Positions 3,872 to 9,238 of a stretch of DNA of 22,788 bases are shown piece by piece (the stretch's first letter is position 1; the number at the start of each line of letters is the position of its first letter). The notes beneath the pieces are model-generated. The model did no database searches. It saw only the letters and a list, made by a program, of their open reading frames with translations, and had not been told where the DNA came from. This stretch comes from a virus. Location of the stretch: positions 1 to 22,788 of IMG/VR virus record IMGVR_UViG_3300030119_000126, one strand, 5' to 3'. The translations under genes and the position numbers were made by a program.

Positions 3872-4930
3872 ATGAAATTTATTGACGAATTAGTTAAGGC
3901 ATCAGGTAACGAATATGCAAATATCGTTGCAGACGGTGTCGCCGCTGGAGATGTAGATTCTTTTGTAGATACAGGATCATATATCTTCAACGCCCTATTA
4001 TCAGGTTCACTATACGGTGGACTTCCAAAAAATAAGATTACCGCTATAGCAGGTGAATCAGCAACTGGTAAAACGTTCTTTGCATTAGGAATGGTAAAAC
4101 AGTTTCTTGCTGATAATCCAGACTCTGCGGTAATCTATTTCGAATCTGAATCTGCGATCACAAAAGAGATGATTGAAGAAAGAGGAATCGATTCAAACAG
4201 AATTGTTATCGTGCCTGTAGTAACAGTTCAAGAATTTAGAATGCAGGCAATATCTATTCTCGATAGATACTTAGAAACGGACGAGTCAGAAAGACCACCG
4301 ATGATGTTCTGTTTAGATTCACTTGGTATGTTATCAACTACAAAAGAGATCGAAGACACAGCGGCCGGTAAAGAAACTAGAGATATGACTAGAGCACAAA
4401 TTGTAAAAGGTGCATTTAGGGTATTGACTCTCAAACTCGGTCGTGCTAAAGTACCTATGATTGTTACAAATCACACGTACGATGTAATCGGATCCATGTT
4501 CCCACAAAAAGAAATGGGTGGTGGGTCAGGACTTAAGTACGCCGCATCTTCAATCATCTATCTTTCAAAGAAGAAAGAAAAAGATGGTACAGAAGTTATC
4601 GGCAATATTATACATTGTAAGAATGCTAAATCTAGACTTACAGTTGAGAACAGAATTGTAGATGTCAGATTGACATACGATAAAGGTCTCGACAGACATT
4701 ACGGGTTACTTGATCTAGCACTTGCAAGTGGTATATTTGAGAAAGCATCTACAAGAGTTAAACTCCCAAATGGTAAAACAGAATTTGGTAAAACGATTAA
4801 TAACAATCCAGAAAAATACTTTACTGAAGACGTGATGGAAAGACTAGAAACAGTTGTACAATCACACTTTAAATATGGAAATAAGAATGAGAATAGAACA
4901 GACAATACTGAAGAATCTGATACAGAATGA
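3872..4930 (+). CDS. uvsX: UvsX, RecA-like recombinase
   Basis: This is the strand-exchange ATPase of T4-type recombination-dependent replication. It works with UvsY, gp32 and the gp41 helicase. The protein has 352 residues (T4 UvsX about 390). Walker A is GESATGKT at 61-68, followed by the ESES segment in the position of the catalytic Glu, and Walker B is MMFCLDSLG near 145. The [18 protein letters not shown] stretch matches the DNA-binding and filament region of RecA/UvsX. The C-terminus is acidic and disordered (NTEESDTE), as in RecA tails. The start has a good GAGAGG ribosome site. It overlaps the gp41 start by 44 bases, so the two are probably translated together. Confidence 0.95.
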
Positions 4931-6260
4931 ATCTTTCGCAAGAAAGGTAATACCATTTCTCAAGTCTGAGTATTTCACCGACTCTTCTGAACAGTTAATT
5001 TATCAATTAACTAAAGAGTACTTTGATAAGTACACAAAGAATCCAACAACTGAGGCACTTCTCATAAACCTTGACAAGATAACTAACGTCAACGACAAAG
5101 TTATCGAGTCTTCAAAACAGTTGATAGATGATTTGTCTAACCAAGAAGAAGAGTCCGCTTACGAGTGGGTGATCAATGAGACAGAACAATGGTGCAAAGA
5201 TAGAGCAATTTACATAGCAGTAATGAACTCAATCGATGTCATTGATAAAAAGTCTCAAAGATCAACAGGTGAAATACCAGACTTACTCAAAGATGCTCTC
5301 TCAGTGTCCTTTGATACTCACATCGGTCACGATGTAATCGAAGATGCTGATGAGAGATTTGAGTTTTACAACAGAGAAGAAGAGAAGATACCATTCGATT
5401 TAGAATACTTCAACAAAATTACAAAAGGTGGTTTACCAAACAAGACACTTAATATTTGTCTAGCAGGTACAGGTGTTGGTAAATCAATGTTTATGTGTCA
5501 CATGGCATCTAGTGCCTTGATGATGGGTAAGAATGTATTGTATCTATCTATGGAAATGTCTGAAGAAAAAATTGCTGAACGTATTGATGCAAATGTATTG
5601 AATATACCAATCAAAGATTTACCAGACTTATCTAAGAAACAATATGATACAAAGATTAATAGACTGAAAAACAAAACTAAGGGTAAATTAATTGTCAAAG
5701 AATACCCGACTGCATCAGCACATGTCGGACATTTTAGACATTTACTACAAGAATTAGATATCAAAAAAGACTTTCAACCTGATATGATCTTTGTCGACTA
5801 TCTAAACATTTGTGCAAGTTATCGTATCAGACCAGGTGCTGGTGCAAACTCTTACACACTAGTCAAGAGTATTGCAGAAGAACTTCGTGGTCTTGCAGTT
5901 GAATATGATCTACCAATTATCAGTGCGACACAAACAACCAGATCAGGTTATGGTTCAACAGATATCGGTCTCGAAGACACTTCAGAGTCCTTCGGGTTAC
6001 CAGCAACTGCTGATTTGATGTTTGCACTTATAACATCTGATGAGTTAGAAGAACTAGATCAGATGGTTGTAAAACAATTAAAGAACAGATACAACGATCC
6101 AACAATATTCAAAAGATTTGTTATCGGTGTAGATAGATCGAGAATGAAATTCTATGATGTCGAACAAGAAGCACAGGAAGAATTAGTAGATAGTGTAGAC
6201 ATGAATGAAGATACACCTGTCATGGACAGAAATAAGAAGTTCTCAGATTTTAAAGTTTAG
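4887..6260 (+). CDS. 41: Replicative DNA helicase (T4 gp41, DnaB-like)
   Basis: This is the hexameric 5'-3' helicase that unwinds the fork and loads the gp61 primase. From ATG 4887 it has 457 residues (T4 gp41 475). Walker A is AGTGVGKS at 193-200, followed by [13 protein letters not shown], the usual DnaB-family H1a region. Walker B is MIFVDYLNI, and the arginine-finger/H4 region is [10 protein letters not shown]. The N-terminus ([15 protein letters not shown], then SEYF) matches the T4 start pattern. I chose ATG 4887 because GGA lies 7 bases upstream. ATG 4875 or a more upstream TTG would add 4 or 11 residues. The gene lies in the last 44 bases of uvsX in another frame. Confidence 0.94.
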
Positions 6261-6354
6261 GGTCGCAAGACTCGGGAGAGGGATAAGGGTCAAGTATCAC
6301 AAAATCCACAAGCATTTACACGATTGATGTGTGCGACCCAACCCCTCCTTTTTA
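6260..6354 (+). ncRNA. Structured RNA or terminator, possible pseudoknot
   Basis: The 142-base gap after gp41 is unusually G/C-rich in patches. GGGTCGCA (6260-6267) pairs perfectly with TGCGACCC (6332-6339). GGAG-A-GGG (6275-6282) can pair with CCCCTCC (6342-6348) with one bulged A, and a run of five T follows at once (6349-6353). The two helices interleave. They therefore form either a pseudoknot or two mutually exclusive structures, the second being a terminator-like stem with a U-tract. ACAC/GTGT (6318-6321/6329-6332) gives a further small hairpin. A simple reading is termination of the gp43-41 block before the next promoter. A regulatory RNA is also possible. Confidence 0.5.
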
Positions 6355-6366
6355 TTCAAAAAACCC

Positions 6367-6396
6367 TTGACAGTAACCATCATTTTTTAGTATACT
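6367..6396 (+). promoter_or_regulatory. Early sigma70-type promoter
   Basis: TTGACA (6367-6372), an 18-base spacer and TATACT (6391-6396). The box ends 6 bases before ATG 6403 and no Shine-Dalgarno is present, which is the same arrangement as at gp43. It should drive the 6403-7539 genes. Confidence 0.8.
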
Positions 6397-6402
6397 AGAA
6401 CT

Positions 6403-6633
6403 ATGAAAGAAGTAAGAATTAAAGGATTCCCAATCATCAAGGGTCAGGTTAGAGATGATGCTATCATCGAGATACCTATACCTGCAGACTTGCATGAACT
6501 CGCACTTTCTGGTGATGGTGACGACTGGGACTTAATGTGTAAAAGATTGCCTGCACATGGATTTGCGAATCCAATTGGTAGAATGTCTATCGAAGAAATT
6601 AAAATCGATGGAGAATGGAGAGTATTTCACTAA
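6403..6633 (+). CDS. Unknown small protein (76 aa)
   Basis: The protein is 76 residues, acidic and probably compact, with alternating strands and a WDLMCKRL helix (EIPIPADLHELALSGD near the middle). It contains no motif I can name. It begins 6 bases after a strong early promoter, and its TAA overlaps the ATG of the phosphatase gene (TAATG), so it is the lead gene of that operon. It is probably an early-expressed host-takeover or regulatory protein by position alone. Confidence 0.75.
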   Translation: MKEVRIKGFPIIKGQVRDDAIIEIPIPADLHELALSGDGDDWDLMCKRLPAHGFANPIGRMSIEEIKIDGEWRVFH

Positions 6634-8029: not shown

Positions 8030-9238
8030 ATGGCCAAAAATTTACACTTAGAACATTTAGAAGACGAGATCATTAATAATGGTATAAAGGGTGGTCGTGC
8101 ATCAATATTCTTCTTATTAGAACTTCGAAATATGCTCAAGGGTAATTCTAAGGGTCGTGTAAATATGACTGTAAAATGGGACGGAGCACCAGCAATTTGG
8201 TGTGGTAAACACCCAGAAGATGGTAGATTCTTTGTCGCAAAGAAATCTCTATTTAATAAAACACCACTTTTCTATACATCAGAACAAGAGATCAAAAATG
8301 CATCAGAACTATCTGGTGATCTAGAGACTAAATTCTTAGAAGCATTTAGACATTTCTCTAGATTATCATGGGGTAATAAAATATTACAGGGTGATCTGAT
8401 GTTTACTAAAGGCGATAAAAAAATGGAAAAGATAGGTAATCTATCGTATGTTACATTTCAACCAAACACAATCAAGTATGCCGCGGTCAACGGATCACCA
8501 CTTGCAAATGCAATCAACAATGCAGATATTGGTATTGTCTGGCATACAACATACACAGGACCAACAATAGCAGATTTGTCTGCAAGTTTTGGTGCAGATA
8601 TTAGTTCATTAGGACACTCTAATTCTATATGGATGGACGATGCGACATACAAAGATGTATCTGGTAATAGTGCAATGACTGCCAAAGAGTCAGTTAGATT
8701 ATCAAATAGTTTATCACAATTAGGAAAAACTTTTAGAAAGATCACCAAAAATGATCTTAACAGAATGAGAAAAATTATGGACACTTTTGCTAGTAAGTCA
8801 GCAATAGGTGCCTCATACAAAACATACGTAAACTCAAAAATCAGATCAGGCAAATTTAATCCATCTTACGAAGATTATCTGATTTATGTTGACAAATATT
8901 ACGAGCAAAAGATCATAGCAAAAGTTAAGATGGAAAAAACTAAACTGATCAAGAAAGAAATTAAAGAACAATTATTGTCTGAGATTAGACGATTAAAGAA
9001 ATTTTTTCAAGCATTAACAGAGTTTCAGAGATTAATGATTGAATCAAAACAAATAATAATAGTTGCTCTCAATAGAGTAAAAAGCATAGGGACATTTGTA
9101 AAAACTAGCACAGGTTATAAAGTAGTGAACCCAGAAGGTTATGTTGCAATTGACAGAGATGGCAATGCAGTAAAACTAGTAGATCGTATGGAATTCTCAC
9201 TAAATAACTTTACAGTAGCAAAAGATTGGGATAAGTAA
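8030..9238 (+). CDS. Putative covalent nucleotidyltransferase (KWDG, ligase/capping-like)
   Basis: The 402 residues contain what look like the core motifs of the ligase/mRNA-capping superfamily. Motif I (K-x-D-G) is VKWDGAPAI with K49 as candidate AMP- or GMP-linked lysine. A motif III-like strand is ILQGDLMF (118-125). Motif IV is NPEGYV (367-372) and motif V is AVKLVDR (380-386). Between III and IV sits an insert of about 240 residues with a long Lys-rich helical stretch (near 290-355). From memory, T4-like marine phages carry a family of unknown function (DUF6267) with the same TVKWDG core. ATG 8030 is preferred over an in-frame TTG at 8012. Its stop overlaps the next ATG. The substrate is unknown: RNA, DNA or protein nucleotidylation are all possible. 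Confidence 0.75.
   Translation: MAKNLHLEHLEDEIINNGIKGGRASIFFLLELRNMLKGNSKGRVNMTVKWDGAPAIWCGKHPEDGRFFVAKKSLFNKTPLFYTSEQEIKNASELSGDLETKFLEAFRHFSRLSWGNKILQGDLMFTKGDKKMEKIGNLSYVTFQPNTIKYAAVNGSPLANAINNADIGIVWHTTYTGPTIADLSASFGADISSLGHSNSIWMDDATYKDVSGNSAMTAKESVRLSNSLSQLGKTFRKITKNDLNRMRKIMDTFASKSAIGASYKTYVNSKIRSGKFNPSYEDYLIYVDKYYEQKIIAKVKMEKTKLIKKEIKEQLLSEIRRLKKFFQALTEFQRLMIESKQIIIVALNRVKSIGTFVKTSTGYKVVNPEGYVAIDRDGNAVKLVDRMEFSLNNFTVAKDWDK

Follow-up and report, generated by a model that had tools for sequence, protein, structure and literature searches.

A nested structured RNA downstream of a gp41-like helicase gene and its family in T4-like marine phages

The RNA element between gp41 and the next gene

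The window, by which we mean the whole 22,788-nucleotide stretch that was analyzed (positions 1 to 22,788 of IMG/VR virus record IMGVR_UViG_3300030119_000126), carries on its + strand a gp41-like helicase gene followed by a structured RNA element with helices P1 to P5, a promoter-like site, and a small ORF. The features are as follows, with the basis for each in parentheses.

4854..6260, +, gp41-like DnaB helicase ORF (ORF call; phrog_19, E 6.8e-130)
6258..6353, +, structured RNA element, from P1 to the U-tract (R1 and R2 covariance-model matches at 6258-6352)
6260..6273, +, P1 hairpin, GGGTC 6260-6264 / GACTC 6269-6273, with a GCAA loop (fold, covariation)
6275..6282, +, P2 5' strand GGAG-A-GGG with a bulge, the second stem of a first-pass annotation of this DNA (covariation)
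6287..6291, +, P3 5' strand GGGTC (covariation)
6298..6331, +, P4 6298-6301/6328-6331, P5 6304-6306/6322-6324, and apical loop 6307-6321 (covariation)
6335..6339, +, P3 3' strand GACCC, letters that the first-pass annotation had assigned to a crossing helix (covariation, longest-run test)
6342..6348, +, P2 3' strand CCCCTCC (covariation)
6349..6353, +, U-tract TTTTT right after P2, a terminator-like 3' end (sequence)
6367..6396, +, promoter-like TTGACA-18-TATACT of the next gene, outside the RNA (11/12 consensus matches)
6403..6633, +, 76-amino-acid ORF downstream of the RNA, without a PHROG family (ORF call, PHROG search)

The gp41 stop codon, TAG, occupies positions 6258-6260, and its final base is the first G of P1. 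The RNA lies between this stop and the next promoter-like site, and there is one copy of it in the window's record. The promoter scan overall returned 64 promoter-like sites compared with 73 in shuffles, i.e., no excess. Two near-perfect sigma-70-like sites (11/12) are found in the window, at 150-178 and 6367-6396, and relatives carry a similar TTGACA...CTTTTTAGTATACTA before the next gene; this shape may be a consensus for early promoters in this group of phages.

The first-pass annotation had paired GGGTCGCA (6260-6267) with TGCGACCC (6332-6339) and GGAG-A-GGG (6275-6282) with CCCCTCC (6342-6348), the second helix ending in TTTTT (6349-6353), and had proposed either an H-type pseudoknot or an attenuator in which the outer helix blocks the terminator stem. 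The letters are indeed at these positions, the two pairings do cross each other, and the G+C content of the segment exceeds that of the window (0.479 versus 0.351). What was overlooked is that GACCC (6335-6339) has a second partner, GGGTC at 6287-6291, nested within the second stem, and that GGGTC at 6260-6264 has a local partner, GACTC at 6269-6273. Because GGGTC stands in both P1 and P3, there are two possible partners for GACCC, and this shared motif also accounts for the 8-bp crossing match in the window.

The predicted fold of the segment is nested: P1, then P2 enclosing P3 and the apical arm, then TTTTT. The strands of P2 are separated by 59 nt. The nested fold has an energy of -31.9 kcal/mol, compared with -22.6 kcal/mol when the crossing helix is forced, which makes the nested fold better by 9.3 kcal/mol. 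The fold of 6258-6350 beats 200 of 200 dinucleotide shuffles (z -3.75), the longer stretch 6240-6370 beats only 191 of 200 (z -1.75), and over 12 family members the z score ranges from -1.24 to -4.06 (dinucleotide shuffles). Fold energy by itself is modest support, and the case rests on covariation.

Extent of the RNA family and its absence from known families

A protein search of IMG/VR with gp41 yielded 504 loci, of which 80 were kept, and the stretch after gp41 is kept in three of these 80 (L001, L002, and L003). A core pattern from the relatives L001 to L003 matched 37 IMG/VR stretches, all of which have the same architecture by eye. Two covariance models were built, R1 from 15 copies and R2 from 38 matches, and the window copy belonged to the training set of both. 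R1 matched 48 of 49 records, once each, most of the 49 having originally been seeded by the pattern. R2 detected 4 further copies in 45 records that had been picked without reference to the RNA; these 45 consist of 36 gp41 relatives, which contain all 4 copies, and 9 named phages. A pattern of the P1 and P2 strands matched 85 IMG/VR stretches, 80 of them among the matches listed, and R2 gave strong matches in 75 of 77 loci tested (4 already known plus 71 of 73 new ones). In addition, 4 of 14 loci reached through a neighboring second RNA (see below) also hold the first RNA. The family total is 127 IMG/VR records (48 + 4 + 71 + 4, with no repeats), which are metagenomic, partly redundant, and mostly fragments. 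One record in this count (L099) is cut at the 5' end of the RNA. Two matches were dropped before counting, L257 (cut by the contig end) and L250:6769 (E 0.62), and L203 and L142, which match the seed pattern without matching the model, were also dropped. The 113 aligned hits (two of 115 rows were dropped) represent 69 distinct sequences and 47 clusters below 93% identity; with the copies found via the second RNA included, there are 70 distinct sequences. The pattern GGTCGCAAGACTCGGG alone was unspecific, many of its 29 stretches being unrelated by eye, and a stricter pattern applied over the loci gave no matches.

The 67 positive records that were scanned whole contain exactly one match each (48/48, 4/4, and 15/15), and these single-match records include lengths of 151, 146, 146, 130, 121, 114, and 105 kb. 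The remaining 60 of the 127 records were scanned around the hit only. At E values up to 1, one record (G016) shows a second, partial match (E 0.77).

Rfam 15 has no match to the window at gathering thresholds, and at E values up to 10 the region 6200-6420 gives only four subthreshold matches (two snoRNA, one miRNA, and STnc150). The same search of 9 other member loci returned one tRNA and nothing at the RNA. The family is not listed in Rfam 15. The ends GGGTCGC/GCGACCC had prompted a tRNA reading, which we rejected, as ARAGORN called 0 genes in the window; no tmRNA was found in 10 member loci. Comparison of the window segment with named phages by blastn (E limit of 10) gave only 24 weak matches to unrelated phages, and blastn of two members against named phages gave none. 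Covariance-model scans of 17 named phage records were also negative (0/9 and 0/8, the 8 including T4 and scanned without a positive control of their own), and the whole T4 record has no match to the family model at an E value of 1. In the open-access literature searched, including PMC2864571, PMC9964418, and PMC9004378, we found no description of the RNA. A host origin was also considered: the core pattern (~19 specified bases), which covers one branch of the family, matched 5 bacterial contigs, none of which was confirmed by R1.

The named viruses closest in gp41 protein are cyanophages, Methylophilales phages, and single-cell marine viruses, the majority of them Kyanoviridae. Gp23, the T4-type capsid protein, is found in 4 of 4 records longer than 100 kb and in 6 of 26 searched records overall. 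The RNA family is widespread in T4-like marine phages.

Covariation of the nested helices and the fate of the crossing helix

The 47 cluster representatives together with L001 and L118 were aligned (alignment A7, 49 rows). In these 49 copies, 96.1% of the cells of the nested structure are paired, 17 of its 23 pairs have changes on both sides (254 such cells), and the covariation score is 0.585 compared with 0.177 when shuffled and ≤0.107 when slid, values that come from an alignment fitted to the nested structure, which favors the nested fold, and from a shuffle control that ignores relatedness. P1 (helix 1) is paired in 94.5% of cells and has both-side changes at 3 of 5 pairs, while P3 (helix 4) is paired in 98% of cells and has them at 5 of 5. 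With P4 and P5 (helices 5 and 6) showing both-side changes at 7 of 7 pairs, P3, P4, and P5 together have them at 12 of 12. Because of the fitted alignment and the relatedness-blind shuffles, we also carried out a longest-run test that is less dependent on the alignment. In this test, the nested P3 partner region has a mean longest run of 6.08, and 45 of the 49 copies have a run of ≥5 bp. An all-against-all column scan placed 13 of the 14 strongest pairs in the nested structure, the remaining one being a slip in the P2 bulge; P2 of the window pairs through the bulge side too (6278-6345), which 44 of the 49 copies do not. Since the P1 pair 6261-6272 is G-U in 48 of 49 copies, the RNA strand is the + strand, the same as that of the genes.

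Several letters are invariant (G6274, GG 6275-6276, and GG 6280-6281, each in 49/49 copies) or nearly so (A6285 in 47/49, A6302 in 46/49, A6303 in 47/49, C6345 in 47/49, and CC 6347-6348 in 48/49 and 49/49). In the apical loop, ACA 6308-6310 is almost unchanging (A6308 in 47/49, C6309 and A6310 in 49/49), and UUACAC 6316-6321 is moderately conserved (35 to 43 of 49). The 10 nt that follow P2 contain UUUU in 40 of 49 copies, compared with a background of 1.9, and 9 of 49 lack it. Two other candidate features were rejected: an anti-Shine-Dalgarno look of CCTCCTTT, from which P2 covaries away, and a readthrough signal at the gp41 UAG, since the upstream ORF ends elsewhere in other copies.

The crossing helix, by comparison, is present as 8 bp in 1 of 49 copies, that of the window, and pairing of the P1 5' strand with the P3 3' region reaches a mean longest run of 4.22 bp over the 49 copies, close to the shuffled value of 4.02 bp. 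An 8-bp Watson-Crick inverted repeat arises in 179 of 5,000 mononucleotide shuffles of the stretch (3.6%), so the crossing helix on its own is weak. On the alignment, 64.2% of its cells are paired and its score of 0.147 is slightly above the shuffled value of 0.120 (7 of 500 shuffles score as high), an excess that is due mostly to the shared GGG/CCC ends. In L001 and L002 (gp41 96% identical), the nested GGGTC/GACCC has become GGGAT/ATCCC, which is two compensatory changes, while GGGTCGCA on the 5' side is unchanged and its 8-bp match to the 3' side is lost. This is what the nested P3 predicts and is contrary to the prediction of the crossing helix. The crossing helix is lost in L003 as well, with the nested fold kept. 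In the full segment, the central pair of the crossing helix has an ensemble probability of ~2e-6, whereas for the window transcript cut off before the P2 3' strand (6341) folding predicts the crossing helix as the optimum. According to this folding model, a switch is possible only as a transient in the window's phage, before P2 is complete.

Based on these results, we conclude that a copy of a conserved structured RNA with a strongly supported nested fold occupies 6258-6353 of the window. On the side of the first-pass annotation, the segment is indeed structured, it is conserved among related phages with compensatory changes (which follow the nested fold in the 49 copies), and the second helix, P2, which does covary, is followed by a terminator-like U-run. 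The GGGTCGCA/TGCGACCC helix is not supported, and neither therefore is the pseudoknot or the attenuator; no conserved, mutually exclusive alternative helix, of the kind that an attenuator requires, was found.

Genomic neighborhood and possible role of the RNA

The neighbors of the RNA differ from copy to copy. The window copy adjoins gp41, on the 3' side of that gene, the L188 copy is near a CobS-like gene, and the L084 type adjoins a DUF2693-like gene and genes that, from their translations, are presumably those for the sliding clamp and clamp loader. Twenty-six downstream proteins fall into 17 clusters and 40 upstream proteins into 18 clusters (26 of 29 downstream ORFs, with that of the window exchanged for 6403-6630, and 40 of 44 upstream ORFs were clustered). 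The two largest upstream clusters have 13 and 8 of the 40 proteins. The first is a small conserved protein (...EEWAKIPKSVHIHRLDSMYYE...) encoded just upstream of the RNA (L187:1609-1887 on the - strand and homologues), and the second is a family of about 90 amino acids (...YEDKIVRMGRNLITLAEKN...). At most 5 nt separate the end of the upstream ORF from the RNA in 16 of 47 clusters, and a downstream ORF with a ribosome-binding-like site is found within 300 nt in 29 of 47, in 14 of these within 40 nt.

In 8 of 47 sequence clusters the RNA has a tRNA gene no more than 300 nt away; counted by hits, this is 14 of 113 compared with 4.7 expected. In 5 of the 47 clusters tRNA-Glu begins 4 to 8 nt downstream of the RNA, and in one cluster tRNA-Leu ends 12 nt upstream of it. 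Among 12 gp41 relatives without the RNA, hand-picked and in several cases chosen for a visible tRNA, 6 have a tRNA within 200 nt after gp41.

As in the window, a TTGACA promoter-like site lies between the RNA and the next gene in the L113/L117/L118/L126 type. Stretches of the form TTGACC-18-TACAAT/TATAAT precede the RNA in the L112, L115, L128, and L130 types and weakly suggest, from sequence, that the RNA may have its own promoter; they fall within the last part of an upstream ORF, whose stop is 3 to 7 nt ahead of the RNA, and for this reason may be coincidence.

The RNA is thus conserved and nested, gives one match per record scanned, is portable among gene contexts, and is usually followed by a U-tract. 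The explanation that we favor, with a probability of roughly 55 to 60%, is that it is a portable gene for a small stable RNA that acts in trans, often with a terminator-like 3' end. Such an RNA would be transcribed as the tail of an upstream gene or together with tRNAs, and in some cases a promoter of its own may drive it. Trimming within the AU-rich UAG flank would produce the 5' end, and the 3' end would come from P2 and the U-tract as an intrinsic terminator or, alternatively, from tRNA processing where a tRNA lies 4 to 8 nt downstream. The conserved apical loop (ACA ... UUACA) may be the part that does the work, through contact with a protein or another RNA, and in the window's phage the RNA may also close the gp41 transcript ahead of the next promoter. 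This explanation is supported by the nested covariation, the single match per record, the differing neighbors, the adjoining tRNAs, and the U-tract, and also by 8 copies recovered without their own sequence (4 in 45 records and 4 in 14 loci). It is weakened by the 29 of 47 clusters with such a downstream ORF within 300 nt, 14 of them within 40 nt, where a role in cis is possible, by the upstream ORFs that end within 5 nt and the two recurring upstream families, by the 9 of 49 copies that lack UUUU, by the extra match in G016, and by the result of 0 in 17 named phages. It is possible that at least subsets of the copies act only in cis, as a terminator or a leader.

Among the explanations that invoke action in cis only, the better one is a 3'-end element, i.e., a terminator or 3' UTR stabilizer whose long conserved insert would shield the mRNA upstream of it or govern termination. 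The terminator-like combination of P2 and a U-tract, present in 40 of 49 copies, would fit this, as would the position of the window copy, after the gp41 stop and ahead of the next promoter-like site, the abutting upstream ORFs in 16 of 47 clusters, and the recurrence of two upstream families. However, terminators are needed many times in a genome, while each of the 67 records scanned whole has a single match, and termination needs neither a conserved apical loop nor covarying P3 to P5. The tRNA-Glu that follows after 4 to 8 nt in 5 clusters also argues against a 3'-end element, as do L129 and L135, where the U-tract is missing and a separate terminator of canonical appearance comes after the RNA. 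We therefore consider this explanation unlikely, although it is the strongest competitor of the stable RNA.

Less probable still is a leader, a riboswitch or protein-sensing attenuator that would control readthrough of P2 and the U-tract into the downstream gene. The 14 of 29 downstream ORFs with ribosome-binding-like sites that start within 40 nt leave little room for a separate promoter, and the conserved loop and bulge could form a ligand site. Against a leader, the 26 downstream proteins fall into 17 clusters rather than one family, some copies have a tRNA as the next gene, the window and the L113/L117/L118/L126 type have the TTGACA promoter-like site in the stretch that separates the RNA from the next gene, and neither the alignment count nor the column-pair scan found a conserved alternative helix. 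A pseudoknot or switch that involves GGGTCGCA/TGCGACCC and the terminator stem and is particular to the window's phage is very improbable: the window's 8-bp match, the fold predicted for the transcript ending at 6341, and the slight excess of crossing-helix covariation over shuffles are outweighed by the loss of this helix in relatives that keep the nested fold and by its negligible pair probability in the full segment.

To our knowledge, few structured phage RNAs are known besides tRNAs, tmRNAs, and riboswitch-like leaders. The closest parallel in setting is with RNA C and RNA D of T4 (rnaC and rnaD, "species 1 and 2"), small stable RNAs that lie within the T4 tRNA gene cluster, beside tRNA-Arg, and for which the T4 record gives no function; the RNA described here adjoins tRNA genes in a minority of its copies. 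T4 rnaD is also predicted to form a small 5' hairpin and a long irregular arm, as is this RNA. In contrast to these likenesses, the family model, with filters off, has no match at rnaD and scores 3.3 bits (E 7.4) at rnaC, and its best score in the rnaC/rnaD region, 11.5 bits (E 0.084), lies outside both RNAs. The likeness to T4 RNA C and RNA D is one of setting, without detectable homology. Like a rho-independent terminator, it has a G+C-rich helix, P2, followed by a U-tract; unlike such terminators, it occurs as one match per record, and its P2 encloses 59 nt in the window rather than a loop of 3 to 8 nt. A standard terminator scan of the window does not list P2 and its U-tract.

The manA and wcaG motifs are described as structured RNAs of marine T4-like phages that are commonly located in potential 5' UTRs (Weinberg et al. 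2010, PMC2864571), and both are also listed for S-CREM1 in PMC9964418. Both motifs are in Rfam and neither matches the window, and the RNA described here, unlike them, has no fixed gene partner. Of two candidate RNAs that are likewise marine only, Ocean-V (RF01714) is in Rfam and does not match this RNA, and Ocean-VI has no Rfam model, with no accession given for it in the table of PMC2864571. The family described here is a concrete, testable object, with a model, a consensus, and many natural variants, and it would improve the annotation of marine phage genomes, in which such stretches look like empty gaps.

Directly downstream of some copies of the first RNA is a second structured RNA, with the core CUCAAUCGGAUGCUCGG, examples of which are as follows.

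L234:969-1064, L115:446-541, and L284 core 8812-8828, -, CUCAAUCGGAUGCUCGG RNA

The second RNA resembles a three-way junction, and its closing helix, which is followed by a U-run in several cases, covaries (GAGGUUA/UGACCUC, AAGGUUA/UAACCUU, and UGGGUA/UGCCCA). In 8 copies, 12 of its 25 pairs have changes on both sides and 190 of 200 cells are paired. There is no Rfam match to the second RNA in L234. An IMG/VR scan with its core gave 19 stretches, six of the 16 inspected looking unrelated by eye. In several contigs it is near the first RNA and tRNAs, and in others it occurs without the first RNA. In both L284 and L276, a 5-nt gap precedes tRNA-Glu and the two RNAs have tRNA-Asp between them, an arrangement reminiscent of the tRNA region of T4 with rnaC and rnaD.

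More tentatively than for the stable RNA itself, and with a probability that we would put below even, we suggest that T4-like marine phages may carry a portable "stable RNA module" composed of tRNAs and at least two new RNA families, including the CUCAAUCGGAUGCUCGG RNA, in which the first RNA would be single copy and would act in trans throughout uncultured marine phages, e.g., as a scaffold for a phage ribonucleoprotein or as a decoy for a host translation or defense factor.

Two further stretches were observed near copies of the first RNA. In L284 (- strand), an apparent third structured element ending GAAUCCUCUC...GAGAGGAUUC-GACUUUUUU lies within at most ~150 nt directly upstream of the RNA at 9225, and in L217 (- strand), the interval from the RNA to tRNA-Glu holds a structured-looking stretch, AGGUAGUUUGAA...UUCAAUACCU, no more than about 170 nt past the RNA.
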